DNA of 64,000 bases. It comes from Caballeronia sp. TF1N1 (GTDB lineage: Bacteria > Pseudomonadota > Gammaproteobacteria > Burkholderiales > Burkholderiaceae). Under the pieces are notes generated by a model. It searched no databases, was not told the DNA's origin, and was given only the letters and a program-made list of their open reading frames with translations. The DNA is taken from the NCBI RefSeq assembly GCF_022878925.1, contig NZ_CP084626.1, forward strand, positions 2,170,001 to 2,234,000, in the 5' to 3' direction. Of the stretch, positions 4,007-21,976 are shown one piece after another. A program made the translations under genes and the position numbers. How positions within the stretch are numbered: the first letter of the stretch is position 1; the number at the start of each line of letters is the position of its first letter.

Positions 4007-4951
4007 ATGAACGAGCCTCTGATCGTCGTGGAAGGCAATCTACGCCTGCCAACGGTGCGCCCGCTCGCTGATCCATCGCTGAAATTCGGCCGCGAGTGGT
4101 CGCCCGCGCGCGCTCGGCCGAGTACGTCGCGCTCCGAGATTCCGCTCTACGGCGCACGGTTCAATACCAAGTACTCGCGCATGTCCGACTCGTCGGACTC
4201 GTTGCATGCGCGTTCTCCGTATCAAGCGACGAGTATCTGGGGAAAGCTCGCCAAGGGCGCCACGCGTCCTTCTACGTCGCGTATGAAAGAGCCTGCCGCA
4301 CAGGTCGATGCGGCTGCGGAAAGAAAGCCCATGCGTATCGATCTGCGCACTCCGTCGCCGTTACGCAAGCGGCCTTACCGCATCGGCAGCTTTGAAAAAT
4401 CCGCTATTGCCATCGCGGTTTCGGCGTTGTTCGTCTGGGTGCTGTTCGCGCATGAACAGTGGCTGGAACGAAGCGGGTCGAAGCCCGCGGTTGATGACGC
4501 AGAACAGATGCAGATTGGACAAGCGGTGTCGCGCGACAGAGCGGCGGATGCGACGCGCGTGCCCACGGTAAGTCAACCGGGGGACCCGCGCCCGGTCGAC
4601 CCAACGCAGCCTGTCGCGGCGCGCGTTCTCATGGCAAGTCGGCCCGCGCATGCGCGTGAGTTAGAACCAGCGCCGGCTTCCGTACATGCCGAAGCGTCCC
4701 ACGCACGAACTCCTCGATACGTGAACGCGGGCGCACATCGCGCGAAGCGGGCAGCCACGAAACCGGTTATTCGATACGCGGCATCGACACATCGCGGCGC
4801 GAGCACGAAGCCCAAGCAACTCACTGCGGCGCCGCGCGCCACTGAGCCGCTGAACGTCGCCGCCCTCTACTCCATGCTCCAGCATTCGCCCACGCTCGAC
4901 AGCAATGTCGCTTCACGTCCCGACAATGCATCGGCCAATCAGGCCCGGTGA
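4007..4951 (+). CDS. hypothetical single-pass membrane protein, basic and low complexity
   Basis: 314 residues from the ATG at 4007; a GTG at 3974 would add 11 residues but lacks a better ribosome site. No family is recognised. The first ~130 residues are polar, Ser/Arg-rich and probably disordered. One hydrophobic helix lies at about 132-149, followed by an Ala/Arg/His/Pro-rich tail of ~165 residues. The layout fits a bitopic inner-membrane protein with a disordered tail. The next gene (DUF2968, exported) starts 33 bp downstream in the same direction, so the two are probably co-transcribed and may share an envelope role. Confidence 0.6.
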   Translation: MNEPLIVVEGNLRLPTVRPLADPSLKFGREWSPARARPSTSRSEIPLYGARFNTKYSRMSDSSDSLHARSPYQATSIWGKLAKGATRPSTSRMKEPAAQVDAAAERKPMRIDLRTPSPLRKRPYRIGSFEKSAIAIAVSALFVWVLFAHEQWLERSGSKPAVDDAEQMQIGQAVSRDRAADATRVPTVSQPGDPRPVDPTQPVAARVLMASRPAHARELEPAPASVHAEASHARTPRYVNAGAHRAKRAATKPVIRYAASTHRGASTKPKQLTAAPRATEPLNVAALYSMLQHSPTLDSNVASRPDNASANQAR

Positions 4952-4984: not shown

Positions 4985-5695
4985 ATGATGCACTTACGTT
5001 TCATTCGTCACGCAGTACTTGTCCTCGCTTTGTTCCTCTCCGGATTGCTAGCTTTTTTCGCCGATGCATCGGCTGCCACGAGCCCGGCTCCGGCTCCAAA
5101 AGCCGATCGAACAAACAGCGCACCGGCGCTATCGCCTGAAGACCTCTCCGATCTTCAGAGCGATGGCGCGTCGCCCTCCGCGAGCAATCTCGCCGAACTG
5201 CAGGACATGGTGCAGGCGGGCCGACTGACCGAGCTGCGCGTCACGCGCAATGGCAGCTACGGCGCGAGGCTCTATTTTCTGCCGCAAGAGATGCTCTATT
5301 ACGTGGCGTTGTCGCAGGACTCGCATTCGTGGCGCGTCGTGAAGACGCAGGAGGAGAATCGCGCCGAATCGGTCTACGCGCAGTTCGCGCGCAAGACACA
5401 TGATCTTGCCGATGGCGAGATTCGCCGTCTGCAGTTGCAGGCGCAAAAAGCGCTGCTCGACCGCGTGATCGCCGTGTCGGCGAATCGCGCGAACCGGTTA
5501 TCCGCCGATCTCGCGCTCGCGCAGCAGCAGGACACGCAGGTGTCGGAACGTCAGCAACAATTGCAGGCGGAATCGGCTGCGCTGCAGAGCGACAAGCTCG
5601 AATCGGAACGCAAGCTGCGCGCATTGCAGATGCAGGTCGATCAGTTGCAGCGTGCGAGCGAAGCCGGGCTGGCTCCGGTGGGTTCGGCGCGGTGA
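4985..5695 (+). CDS. DUF2968 family exported protein
   Basis: 236 residues. A clear Sec signal peptide (hydrophobic stretch at 8-25, cleavage near A-D-A-S-A-A) is followed by a Pro/Ala linker, a compact segment (L-A-E-L-Q-D-M-V-Q-A-G-R-L-T-E-L-R) and a long Gln/Ala-rich coiled coil from about 140 to 225. This matches the DUF2968 family as I remember it from Burkholderia-type genomes; function unknown. It is predicted periplasmic. It follows the membrane protein at 4007 by 33 bp and is likely in the same transcript. Confidence 0.7.
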   Translation: MMHLRFIRHAVLVLALFLSGLLAFFADASAATSPAPAPKADRTNSAPALSPEDLSDLQSDGASPSASNLAELQDMVQAGRLTELRVTRNGSYGARLYFLPQEMLYYVALSQDSHSWRVVKTQEENRAESVYAQFARKTHDLADGEIRRLQLQAQKALLDRVIAVSANRANRLSADLALAQQQDTQVSERQQQLQAESAALQSDKLESERKLRALQMQVDQLQRASEAGLAPVGSAR

Positions 5696-15469: not shown

Positions 15470-15802
15470 GAGCGCTCTCTGATGAAGTTGAGTTCGGAAA
15501 TCTGTCAGCGCCGCGCGCGCGAGGCATTCTTTTCGGCGCGGTGGCCGCGTTTCGGCGCATTCGCGCGGTCGCGCGAGGCGGCGTGGATGCAGCGAAGTGC
15601 AACCCGGGCATTATAGCCAAACGCGCCTGCGCGCCCTTTCGCTTGCCTTGGCGGGATGATCGCCGGACGTTGCACGCCACACGTTCATCCGTGTTTTCCC
15701 CGATCCGAAACCCTCGCCTCGGCTTGCCGCCTGGCAGCTAGAATCCTTACGCGTCTGTAATCATCGAACGAACCCGAAAGCGCAAGAGAAAGAGGAGACG
15801 AC
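15470..15802. other. divergent intergenic region between ppa and the MFS gene
   Basis: No protein-like frame. It should carry the ppa promoter (TATAAT on the minus strand at 15610-15615) and the promoter of the MFS gene, for which only a strong ribosome site AGAGGAGA just before 15803 is clear. Confidence 0.5.
15610..15640 (-). promoter_or_regulatory. probable sigma-70 -10 region upstream of ppa
   Basis: On the minus strand a perfect TATAAT (complement of 15610-15615) lies in GGCTATAATGCC, about 140 bp before the ppa ATG. No good -35 hexamer is visible at 16-18 bp. Confidence 0.4.
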
Positions 15803-17119
15803 ATGGCCCGCACCGCCGATTCAGTGCAAAGCCCCGCCACGGGCACGCCTTCCGCATTCGAGGAGGCAACCTACAAGAAGGTCGCATGGCGGCTCTCGCC
15901 GCTTCTGCTCATTTGTTATGTGGTCGCGTATCTCGACCGCGTGAACGTCGGCTTCGCCAAGCTGCAGATGGCCGCCGATTTGAACCTCTCCGATGCCGTC
16001 TATGGCTTCGGCGCGGGGATTTTCTTTTTCGGCTATTTCATCTTCGAGATACCGAGCAACGTGATTCTTCATCGCGTCGGCGCGCGCGTGTGGATCGCGC
16101 GGATCATGATCTCGTGGGGCGTCATTTCCGCGCTCACCATGTTCATCACCACGCCGACCATGTTCTACGTCATGCGCTTTCTGCTGGGCGTGGCCGAAGC
16201 GGGCTTCTTTCCCGGCATCATTCTTTATTTGACGTACTGGTTTCCGGCGCAACGGCGCGGGCGCATGACGACGCTGTTCATGACGGCGATCGCGTTGTCG
16301 GGGTTGATCGGCGGGCCGGTGTCGGGCTGGATCATGAAGCGTTTCGATGGCACGAACGACTGGCATGGCTGGCAGTGGCTGCTATTGCTGGAAGGCATTC
16401 CGTCGATCGTCGTCGGACTCGTCGTGTTCTTCAAACTCGACGACCGCATCTCGAAAGCGAAGTGGCTCACGGCCGACGAGCGAGCGTTGCTCGAACGCAA
16501 TATCGCCGCCGATAACGTCGAGAAAGAGGACATGCCCATCGGCAAGATTCTGTCGAGCCCGAAGGTCTGGCTGATGAGCCTGATCTACTTTTCCTTCGTG
16601 ATGGGTCTTTATGGCGTGAGCTTCTGGCTGCCGACGATCATCAAGGCCACCGGCGTCTCCGATGCGCTCACGGTCGGCCTCCTCTCCGCGATTCCCTACG
16701 GCGCGGCGGTGATCGGCATGCTGCTGGTCGCGCGCAGCGCGGACAAGCGCGGCGAGCGGCGCTGGCATATCGCCATTCCGGCGTTCATCGGCGCATTGGG
16801 GTTGGTGCTCTCAGTCGTGTGGTCGGCGAACACGCCGCTTGCCATGCTCGGACTCACGCTTGCGACCATGGGCATTCTCACGACCTTGCCGTTGTTCTGG
16901 AGTCTGCCGACTGCGTTCCTCGCGGGCACGGGCGCGGCCGCCGGCATCGCGATGATCAATTCGCTCGGCAATCTCGCGGGCTTTCTGAGCCCGTATCTCG
17001 TGGGATGGCTCAAGCAAGCCACGGCATCGAACGCAAGCGGCATGTATATGCTGGCCGGCTGTCTGATCGTGGGCGCGCTGCTCGTGCTGAGCGTGCCTGC
17101 GCGAATGGTCAATCGGTGA
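15803..17119 (+). CDS. MFS transporter, anion:cation symporter (ACS) family
   Basis: 438 residues, about 12 transmembrane helices. It has the ACS start of TM1 (L-L-L-I-C-Y-V-V-A-Y-L-D-R-V-N-V-G-F-A), F-F-F-G-Y-F-I-F-E-I-P-S-N in TM2, and R-F-L-L-G-V-A-E-A-G-F-F-P-G in TM4, all typical of phthalate, tartrate, glucarate and 4-hydroxyphenylacetate carriers. Predicted inner-membrane importer of an organic anion; substrate not determined. The start has a strong AGAGGAGA ribosome site. No catabolic genes adjoin it. Confidence 0.87.
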   Translation: MARTADSVQSPATGTPSAFEEATYKKVAWRLSPLLLICYVVAYLDRVNVGFAKLQMAADLNLSDAVYGFGAGIFFFGYFIFEIPSNVILHRVGARVWIARIMISWGVISALTMFITTPTMFYVMRFLLGVAEAGFFPGIILYLTYWFPAQRRGRMTTLFMTAIALSGLIGGPVSGWIMKRFDGTNDWHGWQWLLLLEGIPSIVVGLVVFFKLDDRISKAKWLTADERALLERNIAADNVEKEDMPIGKILSSPKVWLMSLIYFSFVMGLYGVSFWLPTIIKATGVSDALTVGLLSAIPYGAAVIGMLLVARSADKRGERRWHIAIPAFIGALGLVLSVVWSANTPLAMLGLTLATMGILTTLPLFWSLPTAFLAGTGAAAGIAMINSLGNLAGFLSPYLVGWLKQATASNASGMYMLAGCLIVGALLVLSVPARMVNR

Positions 17120-17125
17120 ATCGAA

Positions 17126-17157
17126 GGAGAGCCGCCGTGGAAACGAGGCGGCCCTCC
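17126..17157 (+). terminator. stem-loop after the ACS transporter
   Basis: An 11-bp stem with a single mismatch (GGAGAGCCGCC / GGCGGCCCTCC) lies 7 bp after the transporter stop. It lacks a proper T-run, so it is a probable rather than certain terminator. Confidence 0.5.
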
Positions 17158-17219
17158 TATAATGGCGCAGGCGGTACGTCGCCGCGATGATGCATCGCAC
17201 TCCCGCGCTTTATAAGCTC

Positions 17220-17873
17220 CTATGCAGGAGTCTTGCCGGGCGTGTCGAGGAACTCGATCGACTCGATAATCTTCAACGCCTCCGGTATTACTCCGGTCTT
17301 GCTAAAGCGGGCTACCGCCACGACGGGTGCACCGCCGCACAGGGCCACTGCTGCGCGAAGCAAACAGAACCCTAATGAGACACTTCGATTTTGCGGATCA
17401 CCGACGATCATGCGCTGAAGCACTACTAAACCGGAACTCCCAACAGCCTTTACCGAAAGCCACTGCACAGCCGGAACCAACACCTTCTTGTCGCGTGCAG
17501 ACACCCCCGATAAATCCGTGAACCAACGTCCTTTCTGTACGTCATATCGAGCCAAGGTGTAGTCGCGAATTGAGCCCGCATCGGACGAACTTAGACAAAC
17601 GAAGGTAATTGCAAGACTCCCGATACCGGTTTTTTTGTACGGCAAGTCGTCTACCGCATAGCTGTTGCCGGATATCCATCCTCCGTAAGGATCTTTGAAT
17701 CCAATGGAACAATGATGGTTACCGCTGCTAACAAGTAATTCCTTTCGCTCGTTTGGTTCAGACTTTGCGGATGAAGCGCTGTGCAGCCCGAGAGCAATGA
17801 AACAGACGGCCAAGCCTTTTGCGATTAACTGGCAAGCTTTTGAGCCACATAGCAGACATAATTTTTTATTCAT
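17220..17873 (-). CDS. exported hypothetical protein, candidate immunity partner of the upstream hydrolase
   Basis: 217 residues. An N-terminal basic/hydrophobic segment (about 1-36, ending A-S-S-A) looks like a Sec signal peptide. The mature part has several cysteines (H-H-C-S-I-G-F, F-V-C-L-S, G-F-C-L-L) and no domain I recognise. Its ATG overlaps the stop of the upstream peptidoglycan-hydrolase reading frame by ATGA, so the two are translationally coupled. A periplasmic product coupled to a peptidoglycan hydrolase is the usual layout of an effector-immunity pair, but that role is inferred from position alone. Base composition is visibly more AT-rich than the flanking operons. Confidence 0.6.
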   Translation of the reverse strand: MNKKLCLLCGSKACQLIAKGLAVCFIALGLHSASSAKSEPNERKELLVSSGNHHCSIGFKDPYGGWISGNSYAVDDLPYKKTGIGSLAITFVCLSSSDAGSIRDYTLARYDVQKGRWFTDLSGVSARDKKVLVPAVQWLSVKAVGSSGLVVLQRMIVGDPQNRSVSLGFCLLRAAVALCGGAPVVAVARFSKTGVIPEALKIIESIEFLDTPGKTPA

Positions 17874-20313
17874 CTTTGGCCTCTTCGCAGAATATCGTAA
17901 TCTGGCGCGTCTGCCGCCTGACCCGGCGCGATCGGGAATTTCACTTCGGATAAGACTGCGAGAGCCACGTTGTAAGCCATACAGCGCGCCTCAAATCCGT
18001 TAAGACGTATCGAATAGAGACTATCGATTGCCCCTGGCAAGTTCACCGATGCCGATGCTTTCCAAAAACTAGCGCTGCGGTAGTAACTATGCGCACGTCG
18101 ATTTGCGGTAAGCCCTACTCGCTCCAGTACATGCGGCTCATCGGCATACCTGGCCATCCGCAGCTTCACCCAGTAAAAGCCTGCGCTCAACGCGGCATCC
18201 GACTGATCCGGAAGCGAGACGTTTGCCCGCCACTTATGCATGTCAGGTGTAAGAGCAGTCTCAGTGGCTTGCCAAACATCGTTGCTCCGTGAACGATCTG
18301 CCGCTTGCTGCGCAGTTAGAAGTTGTACACGTACAGCTGACGGGATTTGTGATGCTCGCCCGTGAAAATCCCAATAGTCGAGGTAGTTGCTTGCCCATGT
18401 CAGCTGTAGGAAGCCGCGCCCAAACCAAGGGTAATATCTTTGAGTTGTAGGAGAGCCCTCTTCCAGCAGTTGCAACCATTGAGATTCTTGAATAGCGTTG
18501 CCAAAAAAACTTGCCATACGTAACGGCGTGTTGATGCCGTAGGTGCACATCATGCGATTTAAAACGACTCGCTGGTTCTTGAAGATATTTCCGCTAGTGA
18601 AAGTGCCTGGGACTAGCTCCCACAATGTTTGCCCGCCGTGCTTACGGACCGTAAAAGATGGTACTAGCTGCTTGAACTCTTTTTCACTCAACCACGCACA
18701 CTTCCTAAAGTGTCGAATAAACGCCGTCGGATGAAAAAACCAAAGCTTATTCGCCTCGCCTAGCGGCGTCTGCTTTATAAACTGAAACTGCTTGACGAAG
18801 CTGAGGAAGTTTTCGTAGCCACGCGGATCGGTTTCCTTGCGCTTACCAAAGAATCCATTCGGTTCATTCAGCGCACGGAAGCGTTCCTCATTGTTGCTCG
18901 TATCCCATTCGCTTTTGGCGTGACAAATATAGCCCTTGAGCTTGACTCGCACTTCCGCCTCGCCACGCACAAAAGCCGCCAGTCGCTGGTCATGGTCGAA
19001 CTCCGTTGGCGTTTGGTCATGTAACGCTAGGCGTGTATCGGTCACACCCGCAATCGTGCAAAGCTCGTCATAGCCACAAAACCCCTCTTGATTGAACGGC
19101 GTATTGCCGTCCTCGATCTTCTGCCAGCCCATGAAGAAAGGGAAGTCTGCATCCGACAGCTTTTGAATGCTGGTCAAATTCACGTCGATATAGCCCGTCG
19201 TACCTTGAGCAAACGGTACCTCGACCCAAGTAGCTCGATTGCCGGCGGGCAAGGTCGGTGTATCCGTGCTCAGAATGCGGCCGAACGGAGCAACTCATAG
19301 CCTTCGCTTGGGCACGCTTCGTATAGCGTGGTTGCGCGCTCGTAAAGGTCATATTCATACTCCGCGAACTTATCCTGCACAGGTTCCGGAGTCAGCGAAA
19401 CAAGCTTTCGATCGCCCTTGTCAATCCACGCACGCATGAAACGCTCGCCCCGGCTAAAGTACGTCTCGACGTAAAGCGTGCTGTTGGCATCCAAAGCGCC
19501 TGCGTTCAGTGCGGGGAAAAGCAGCTTGGGTGTGCGACCTTTCGTCTTCAGGTTTCCTTGGCCCGGCGGCGTGCTCATGAACGTGGAGCCCTTTGGAATA
19601 ACAAAGTATGTGTGCCCCCAATAGTCCTTCGACGCTGGCGTGTTTGGCTGTGCATCACCCAACGCAACCTTATGCCCCACCTGATCGAACCACGCGGTGA
19701 AATCCGCCTCGGTCATGAAGATCTCAAAGTGCAGATGCTTCTCACCCTGACTTTGGCCGACAAAACCCAGGCGATCCTTCCGATAAACCTTCTTTCCACC
19801 GCCCGCTTGCACGCCTTCTGTCTCCCTGAGCAGCCAAGCGGCGAGCGCACCGGGGGAACTCTCAGGCATCGGATTATTTGGCTGCGATGCAAGCGCATTG
19901 GTGCTAATGACGTCAAGCAAGTGCATGTAAAGCGAATAGAAGGTGATGGTGCGGCCTTCGCCTGTTTCGGTCACGTGTTTGAGCAGCACGAAGCCGATGT
20001 TGCTGTTGAGCGCAAGGCTGCCGTCGGAATTTGTTTGGCCATCCGAGACGGCCTTCAAAGCGACGCGATAAGCAACGACTTCTCCATCTGCGATCGCCCG
20101 CACCGGTTCGAGTTGACCATCGCCCGCGAAAGGCACCAGATGCATGCCGCAATGCCAGCGTCGATCGAATGCGATTGGGAAAACACCACTATGCGATAAC
20201 TCGAAGTCATCGACCTTATCCATCATTGGATCGGTCTTCCATTTTTCTATGGGCGTGATCAGGCCTTCGGCGGGAAGTAAAGGGGGGCTAATGATCATTG
20301 GTGGACTCGGCAA
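17870..20313 (-). pseudogene. peptidoglycan hydrolase (M23-like + SH3-like + GH19-like) split by a one-base frameshift
   Basis: Two frames encode parts of one protein of about 810 residues. The first (20313 or ATG 20298 to 19270) is an M23-like metallopeptidase domain: R-W-H-C-G-M-H-L (His54; the usual Asp ligand is His58) and the H-L-H-F-E motif. The second (in frame from 19293 down to 17870) continues with an SH3-like segment (T-W-V-E-V-P, T-T-G-Y-I-D-V), then a GH19 lysozyme/chitinase-like domain: F-F-G-N-A-I-Q-E-S-Q-W with a candidate catalytic Glu, and W-F-G-R-G-F-L-Q-L-T-W. Around 19284-19285 restoring one T in CGTTCGGC (to CGTTTCGGC) turns ...L-L-R-S-A-A-F-stop into ...L-L-R-F-G-R-I-L-S-T. 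The second half could only restart at a weak TTG (19252). Either a true mutation or a sequencing error. Confidence 0.72.
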
Positions 20314-20326
20314 GGCTACCTGCTGA

Positions 20327-20482
20327 TTACGGTAGTGCCGGATTGTTGCGGAAAACCGGAACGAAACGCAGGGCGGAATCGCTTTTCCGCGGACATTTCA
20401 GATAATCCTCAAACTGCTTAGGACAGAGTCGCTCCTTGTATAAAGCACCCGCGCACCACGACGACGCACACCTTGCCACCAT
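20327..20482 (-). CDS. small Cys-rich ORF, 51 residues, upstream of the hydrolase; possibly a gene remnant
   Basis: An open frame from ATG 20482 to TAA 20327 encodes 51 residues with natural-looking composition (A-L-Y-K-E-R-L-C-P-K-Q-F-E-D-Y-L-K-C-P-R). It ends 14 bp before the hydrolase start. There is no clear ribosome site, and a stop lies seven codons upstream of the ATG. The overlapping frame just upstream (20400-20600) also reads protein-like. The likeliest explanation is the 3' remnant of a once longer gene with a frameshift; a genuine small protein is possible. Confidence 0.3.
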   Translation of the reverse strand: MVARCASSWCAGALYKERLCPKQFEDYLKCPRKSDSALRFVPVFRNNPALP

Positions 20483-20576
20483 GCACCAAAAGCAACCGTG
20501 CTAGACGCCTCCGCCACGCTGTAATTCCTTCCCGAAAACTCCGCAAACCCATAGCCATCGGTCAAAAGCCCCCGAT

Positions 20577-20592
20577 TGGCATAGCACTTGCA
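20577..20592 (+). promoter_or_regulatory. sigma-54 (RpoN) promoter of the urt operon
   Basis: The 16-mer TGGCATAGCACTTGCA matches the -24/-12 consensus TGGCACG-N4-TTGCW at all but two positions, with the essential GG and GC separated by exactly 10 bp. It lies about 77 bp before the urtA ATG on the coding strand. Urea uptake under RpoN/NtrC control during nitrogen limitation is well known, so placement and biology agree. Confidence 0.75.
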
Positions 20593-20668
20593 GAACCCCT
20601 TTGCTGGTAGCGGGCGTCGACGCTCACACCACGTCAAGCAAATACACATCGGCAAGGGGAACACACAA

Positions 20669-21976
20669 ATGAAACGACGCAGTCTGCTGAAGTTCGGCTC
20701 CATGTCGGGCGCGCTCGCCCTCGCGGGTCAGCTTCCGATCACCAAGGCGCAAGCCGCCGATACGGGTCCGATCAAAGTCGGCATCCTGCATTCGCTGTCG
20801 GGCACCATGGCCATCTCCGAGACGTCGCTCAAAGACACGGCGCTCATGACCATTGCCGATATCAACAAGAGCGGCGGTGTGAACGGTCGCCAGCTCGAAC
20901 CGGTGGTCGTGGACCCGGCGTCCAACTGGCCGCTCTTCGCCGAAAAAGCCCGTCAGCTTCTGACGCAGGACAAGGTCGCCGTCGTGTTCGGCTGCTGGAC
21001 GTCCGTGTCGCGCAAGTCGGTGCTGCCGGTCTTCGAGGAACTCAACGGCCTGCTCTTCTACCCCGTGCAGTACGAAGGCGAAGAGATGTCGCGCAACGTG
21101 TTCTACACGGGCGCGGCGCCGAACCAGCAAGCAATTCCCGCCGTCGAATATCTGATGGGCGCGGAAGGCGGCAGTGCCAAGCGCTTCTTCCTGCTCGGCA
21201 CGGACTATGTGTATCCGCGCACGACCAACAAGATCCTGCGCGCCTTCCTTCATTCGAAAGGAGTCAAGGATGAGGACATTCAAGAGGTCTACACACCGTT
21301 CGGACATAGCGACTATCAAACCATCGTCGCGAACATCAAGACCTTTTCCCAAGGGGGAAAGACAACTGTCGTCTCTACGATCAACGGCGACTCGAACGTA
21401 CCGTTCTACAAGGAACTCGGCAATCAAGGCCTGAAGGCGACGGACGTGCCCGTGGTCGCGTTCTCGGTCGGTGAAGAAGAACTGCGCGGTATCGATACGA
21501 AGCCGCTCGTCGGCCACCTCGCGGCATGGAACTACTTCATGTCGGTGAAGAACCCGAACAACACGAAGTTCGAGAAGGAGTTCTTCGCGTACGCCAAGGC
21601 GCAGAATCTGCCGGGCGGCGACAAGCGCGTGACCAACGATCCGATGGAAGCGACCTTCGTCGGCATCCACATGTGGAAGCAGGCGGTCGAGAAAGCGAAG
21701 AGCGCCGATGTGGACAAGGTGCGCGTCGCGATGATCGGTCAGAGCTTCGCCGCGCCCTCGGGCTTCACCTTGACGATGGATGGCAACCACCATCTGCACA
21801 AGCCCGTGATGATCGGCGAAATTCGCGGCGACGGTCAGTTCAACGTCGTGTGGAAGACGAAGACCGCCATCCGCGCGCAGCCGTGGAGCCCGTATATCGC
21901 CGGCAATCAGGGAAAGCCGGACGTGGTCAGCTCGATTCCCTCGTTCCTGCGCCGCGCGCGCACGCGCACGGCCTGA
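20669..21976 (+). CDS. urtA: urea ABC transporter substrate-binding protein
   Basis: 435 residues from the ATG at 20669 (AAGGGGA ribosome site). The N-terminus M-K-R-R-S-L-L-K-F is a twin-arginine type export signal, cleaved near A-Q-A-A-D. The mature part is a Leu/Ile/Val-binding-protein-like fold with UrtA hallmarks: G-I-L-H-S-L-S-G-T-M-A-I-S-E near the start, G-C-W-T-S-V-S-R-K-S and F-Y-P-V-Q-Y-E-G-E-E. It binds urea in the periplasm and delivers it to UrtBC. First gene of a five-gene operon that continues into ureD. Confidence 0.93.
   Translation: MKRRSLLKFGSMSGALALAGQLPITKAQAADTGPIKVGILHSLSGTMAISETSLKDTALMTIADINKSGGVNGRQLEPVVVDPASNWPLFAEKARQLLTQDKVAVVFGCWTSVSRKSVLPVFEELNGLLFYPVQYEGEEMSRNVFYTGAAPNQQAIPAVEYLMGAEGGSAKRFFLLGTDYVYPRTTNKILRAFLHSKGVKDEDIQEVYTPFGHSDYQTIVANIKTFSQGGKTTVVSTINGDSNVPFYKELGNQGLKATDVPVVAFSVGEEELRGIDTKPLVGHLAAWNYFMSVKNPNNTKFEKEFFAYAKAQNLPGGDKRVTNDPMEATFVGIHMWKQAVEKAKSADVDKVRVAMIGQSFAAPSGFTLTMDGNHHLHKPVMIGEIRGDGQFNVVWKTKTAIRAQPWSPYIAGNQGKPDVVSSIPSFLRRARTRTA

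Follow-up and report, generated by a model that had tools for sequence, protein, structure and literature searches.

TseP of Aeromonas dhakensis and its homologues AHA_1849 and PSPTO_5204 are amidase-lysozyme effectors of the type VI secretion system (T6SS), and the M23-like domain of TseP is reported to be a zinc amidase and its two domains to be active apart (PMC11893102). Here we compare with TseP a locus in a 64,000-nucleotide stretch of Caballeronia sp. TF1N1 (contig NZ_CP084626.1, positions 2,170,001 to 2,234,000; the window, meaning the whole stretch analysed), where two overlapping minus-strand frames hold the pieces of what sequence and structure models predict to be an M23-fold and GH19 cell-wall hydrolase resembling TseP. 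We read the locus, with a probability of roughly 80%, as a T6SS-type effector-immunity cassette with a TseP-like effector, VgrG-less and decaying. TseP is the closest experimentally characterised relative found, and the sequence comparison with it took in the C-domain held in the PDB. A first-pass annotation of the window had described the broken hydrolase; it did not include the T6SS-type nature of the effector, the immunity-like gene downstream, the low-GC insertion lacking VgrG or the near-identical whole copy in the database.

The first-pass annotation had proposed that the two adjacent frames join into one protein of about 810 residues through a single-base change near 19284-19285, and that neither frame alone encodes a complete natural protein. 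Both proposals hold. The database protein P0122 of Caballeronia sp. GACF4 (809 aa) has a whole frame, is 99% identical to the window pieces and is matched over its entire length by the two together, with 8 differences and no residue lost. Because this piecewise match loses no residue, the change comes to a net single nucleotide within the overlap of the two frames. The features concerned are:

19270-20298, minus strand: first frame (piece 1), 342 aa from the ATG at 20298 to the stop at 19270; M23-like N-terminal domain and start of the middle region; residues 1-338 match P0122 1-338 with 2 differences.

17870-19294, minus strand: second frame (piece 2), 474 codons and a stop; the remaining middle region and the GH19 domain, corresponding to P0122 339-809 with 6 differences.

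19270-19294, minus strand: overlap, across which both frames are open, and seat of the one-nucleotide frame change; no homopolymer longer than 2.

The first frame probably begins at the ATG at 20298 and not at the TTG at 20313; the frames of P0122, C. peredens and C. fortuita likewise begin MIISPP. As recorded, the window effector is not one continuous polypeptide of the kind that TseP-like effectors are.

Homologues were collected in a survey that is a sample: two candidates were scored in nearly each of 398 genomes, loci were accepted with E values no higher than about 1e-65, and removal of the duplicates L164 and L173 left 105, the window included (L209-L212 were added by hand and stand outside all counts). 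A natural division would have been suggested by homologues stopping at the end of the first frame, but this was not the pattern found: 103 of the 105 loci (window counted) cross the junction point in one frame with no stop. The exceptions are the window itself and L195, where the gene is truncated near the junction. Together with the whole P0122, this count indicates a strain-level break, by mutation or assembly error, and no natural split. No lesion beyond the single frame break is present in the window effector gene. The ratio of nonsynonymous to synonymous substitution rates (dN/dS, NG86) against C. peredens is 0.079 for piece 1, 0.077 for piece 2 and 0.17 for the immunity-like gene, and the corresponding values against C. 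fortuita are 0.066, 0.087 and 0.10; dS exceeds 1.4 in all these comparisons. Judged from these ratios, the effector frame has been under constraint up to the very recent past, as either a new mutation or an assembly error would leave it.

The active-site features of the effector lie as follows:

20140-20154, minus strand: codons H49 to H53, an M23-type zinc motif (H49-x3-H53), placed by computation from the 20298 start, with His where Asp is usual.

17933-18694, minus strand: GH19 lysozyme/chitinase-like domain (P0122 residues 536-789).

18458-18487, minus strand: codons E605 to E614, bounded by the two invariant GH19-site glutamates, both present in 91/91 alignment rows.

The usual zinc motif of M23 enzymes such as LytM is HxxxD plus HxH. 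The effector family departs from both parts, with His replacing Asp in 90/91 rows and the first His of HxH present in only 33/91, the window among them. The HxxxH form is itself conserved (H49 in 91/91 rows, H53 in 90/91), and the predicted structure of the N-terminal domain matches a LytM-like fold, as expected of an M23-type zinc domain. The M23 label of the first-pass annotation thus stands on the predicted fold, while Pfam gave it only a sub-threshold score; PF01551 matches at E 0.01 or better in 36 of 58 family members. Pfam and NCBIfam were run on the pieces, the immunity-like proteins and the intact relatives, and for the window effector returned weak M23 matches only. The GH19 label is clear by profile and fold, although the window piece has no Pfam match to it: the C-terminal domain has a GH19 fold with the catalytic Glu pair, and the TseP C-domain (8xcl) is matched by both methods. 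The conserved M23 histidines (H49, H53, H108, H126, H190) all lie in piece 1 and both glutamates in piece 2, while the M23 fold alignments reach model residue ~530.

Two other parts of the first-pass annotation fared less well. The junction segment, which it took for an SH3-like domain, is indeed a well-predicted domain (pLDDT, a model confidence score, 89.9), but no SH3/SH3b family or fold match was found for it, and absence from those match lists does not exclude SH3. In the suggested attack on two bonds of peptidoglycan, the term "endopeptidase-like" may or may not be right, as the counterpart domain of TseP is described as a zinc amidase (PMC11893102).

The relatives of the window effector place it in a T6SS setting. 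In C. peredens (L029), a VgrG gene (Pfam GPD, T6SS_Vgr, DUF2345) is followed at a distance of two bases by a whole 807-aa effector gene, and this in turn, one base further on, by a gene for a 218-aa immunity-like protein; the effector has the same domains as that of the window and is 75-80% identical to the window pieces, and unlike in the window its frame is whole. The C. fortuita effector (L030) also has the same domains, 73-79% identity to the pieces and an immunity-like gene behind it, but its frame breaks near the C-terminus, unlike the whole frames of C. peredens and P0122. P0122, again with the same domains, is known as a protein without genomic context. At C. fortuita locus L104 (5602-5932) the upstream VgrG is reduced to scraps, residues 1-62 and 511-554, in three frames. 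Behind the window effector lies:

17220-17873, minus strand: immunity-like protein, 217 aa, whose start looks signal-peptide-like by eye; its ATG and the effector stop codon overlap, and homologues stand behind the C. peredens and C. fortuita effectors.

This protein is 55% identical to the 218-aa C. peredens homologue. The arrangement is that of a T6SS effector-immunity pair, in that the gene adjoins the effector downstream and its homologues follow effectors with the same tail, export being judged by eye. In Paraburkholderia dilworthii (L145; P0123, P0242) the N-terminal part of the effector is 33% alike, the GH19 tail is 76% identical to that of C. peredens and the immunity protein is 63% identical to the window's, as if tail and antidote moved together.

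No VgrG trace was found upstream of or near the window effector, by a detection that may miss divergent VgrGs. PF05954, the VgrG family, includes phage tail hubs too. The strain's own genome (7.07 Mb) has 8 matches to it and 3 to PF05943 (TssC/VipB); the window's contig carries a single PF05954 match, more than 1.6 Mb from the window. A paralogue of the effector on another contig (L002/L209, 744 aa) is a single frame that is 52% identical to piece 1 and, over residues 6-267 of piece 2, 43% identical to that piece; a small protein with a signal-peptide-like start follows it. The paralogue differs from the window copy in having a VgrG match directly upstream and a C-terminal part with no match to piece 2 past residue 267, and its downstream protein is not among the own-genome immunity matches. 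Downstream of this intact paralogue lies a third, decayed scrap of the effector family with stops (L209 11647-11825; own genome C4:527910-528071, L005), and similar effector scraps stand behind effectors in L112, L139, L141, L162 and L196.

Across the survey, the lack of VgrG goes with breakage of the effector. An intact VgrG lies upstream in 60 of the 105 copies, and the effector frame is whole at 86 of the 103 loci where its status could be set. Effectors are broken at 12 of 35 loci without an intact upstream VgrG versus 3 of 59 with one (Fisher p 3.2e-4; n=94 after setting aside 9 loci with the VgrG cut by a contig end, L106 with a cut effector and L189 cut on both). The association persists when the window is excluded (11/34 versus 3/59, p 6.9e-4) and when C. 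fortuita (L104) and L204 are excluded with it (9/32 versus 3/59, p 3.3e-3); under shuffling within genera, window excluded, the observed value was reached in 156 of 20000 runs. These counts include an effector status set by hand at 24 loci (17 broken, 5 intact with a downstream relic, 2 edge) and hand-set effector ends in broken loci, and C-terminal breaks in variable tails can go undetected in either VgrG class. In most cases the antidote-like gene is still there after the toxin frame has broken. A candidate of homologous length is present at 10 of 12 broken and 18 of 23 intact VgrG-less loci, and at 2 of 3 broken and 49 of 56 intact VgrG-linked loci; at one of the ten, L187, a stop falls inside the genome-search match (G031), although the open reading frame is 184 aa. 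At 2 broken loci at contig ends no candidate was seen. Immunity-like genes also occur in tandem, at L147, L048, L053 and others, with up to four consecutive matches in G321.

The cassette sits in an insertion between two genes:

17120-20662, no strand: low-GC (53%) insertion with the effector-immunity pair.

15803-17119, plus strand: flanking major facilitator superfamily (MFS) transporter gene, named by eye.

20663-21976, plus strand: flanking urtA-like gene (urea ABC transporter binding protein), named by eye.

The G+C content of the cassette is 53% against 62% for the window, near the lowest 3-kb stretch of the latter. Of 20 other Caballeronia regions, 16 have the MFS gene next to urtA with 232 to 2138 bp between them, compared with 3544 bp in the window; the remaining 4 have no MFS match. 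Neither the effector pieces nor the immunity-like protein matched any of these 20 regions at E 1e-5, and a plasmid search with the locus DNA gave no match. The MFS and urtA frames beside the cassette are open, with lengths as in relatives. In Caballeronia, the gap between the MFS gene and urtA may serve as a landing site for cargo. When its frames were inspected in 13 of the 20 regions, for gaps above 700 bp only, T6SS-like cargo was seen in two of six such gaps: an Aspzincin_M35 gene (Pfam) with a small signal-peptide-like protein in C. fortuita L215 (4083-5313), and a PAAR-motif gene (Pfam) with a small lipoprotein-like frame in L217, another Caballeronia (4220-4768 and 5288-5578). On the other side of the MFS gene, the interval from ppa is only 333 bp in the window (15470-15802) and ~2.6 kb in L213, where it holds genes that by eye are aldehyde-dehydrogenase-like and short-chain-dehydrogenase-like.

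An assembly or sequencing error, with the strain's effector whole as in GACF4, is a serious contender, though we consider it somewhat improbable. The near-identical P0122 is whole, both pieces still look constrained, and the gene carries a single break and otherwise no lesion, all of which speaks for such an error. It fits less well with an overlap free of homopolymers longer than 2, with adjoining MFS and urtA frames that are open at the lengths of their relatives, and with the frequency of breaks in VgrG-less copies of the family, some of which may themselves be errors. On balance we lean towards a real mutation. That the pieces work separately, piece 1 as an M23-only protein or piece 2 as a GH19-only protein, is unlikely. 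The division of histidines and glutamates between them would allow it, and the domains of TseP are reported active apart (PMC11893102), but the end points of the M23 alignments suggest that this fold uses residues of piece 2, the first listed start of piece 2 (TTG, 19252) is mid-protein in P0122, and no surveyed homologue ends or splits at the junction, the truncated L195 apart. Programmed ribosomal frameshifting, which would yield the full protein from two open frames with a short overlap, is very improbable, since the overlap has no slippery heptamer by eye and the frame break is not conserved among homologues. Two separate genes, as the open reading frames are listed, deserve practically no credence. 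We rejected both of these readings because a single frame spans the junction at 103 of 105 loci, with P0122 agreeing.

Several observations weigh against the decaying-cassette reading itself. PF01551 scores below the Pfam gathering cut-off of 28.7 bits, at 18.7 for piece 1 and 16.7 for P0122. PF00182 (GH19) has no match in the 460-aa window piece at E 1, nor in P0122 and the other 57 members at E 0.01. The genus labelled g20 shows the opposite trend, with 0 of 5 VgrG-less effectors broken versus 2 of 22 VgrG-linked ones, and divergent VgrGs may escape the detection used. Immunity candidates are retained in broken VgrG-less copies (10/12) no more often than in intact ones (67/79, VgrG status known), so we claim no selection on the antidote, of which the counts are no proof. 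Finally, a dN/dS of ~0.08 in both pieces means a break too recent for decay, and an assembly error would give the same value.

If the locus is a decaying T6SS cassette, its intact form probably acted much as TseP does. A VgrG tip would carry the effector into the periplasm of a rival, where the N-terminal domain, a zinc-dependent M23 fold, would attack peptidoglycan on its peptide side and the GH19 lysozyme domain on its glycan side. With the one-nucleotide break, the cell as recorded would be unable to make the whole effector. The downstream signal-peptide-like protein, whose gene is whole, is presumably a periplasmic antidote and might continue to shield the cell from kin armed with the intact effector. 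It is tempting, if rather doubtful, to speculate that loss of the VgrG neighbour starts a one-way decay, in which cassettes copied away from VgrG quickly lose the toxin frame, keep the antidote and become orphan immunity genes, with the MFS-urtA gap as one landing site. A frameshift alone is ordinary. If this break is real, an effector-immunity pair has been caught at the first step towards an orphan antidote, with the toxin frame just broken, the antidote-like gene whole and an intact sister strain known. The GACF4 and window strain pair would then allow a test of the immunity idea, and the survey puts a number on how VgrG loss goes with effector breakage in one family.

The window effector resembles TseP in its M23-like zinc domain with His residues four apart (H49/H53; H19/H23 in TseP) and its C-terminal lysozyme domain, which matches 8xcl by fold and profile, with Glu residues nine apart (E605/E614; E654/E663 in TseP) (PMC11893102). 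Its relatives share with TseP a VgrG neighbour and an immunity-like gene; the window copy differs in having no VgrG neighbour and a broken frame. Among open-licence PMC papers, by title and start of abstract, none was found on M23-GH19 effectors of Caballeronia, and the passages available of two Caballeronia symbiont papers are silent on the window effector (PMC12632191, PMC11075893). The literature already describes bifunctional T6SS cell-wall effectors as well as orphan immunity genes, and the window locus is a damaged further example. Orphan T6SS immunity genes reportedly occur in arrays of V. cholerae. An islet of Salmonella Typhi holds them as well, according to the passages available (PMC7400221). 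The window locus is like these in retaining an immunity-like gene without a working effector; unlike such islets, it still has its broken effector beside it, almost complete, which would make the stage it represents an earlier one.
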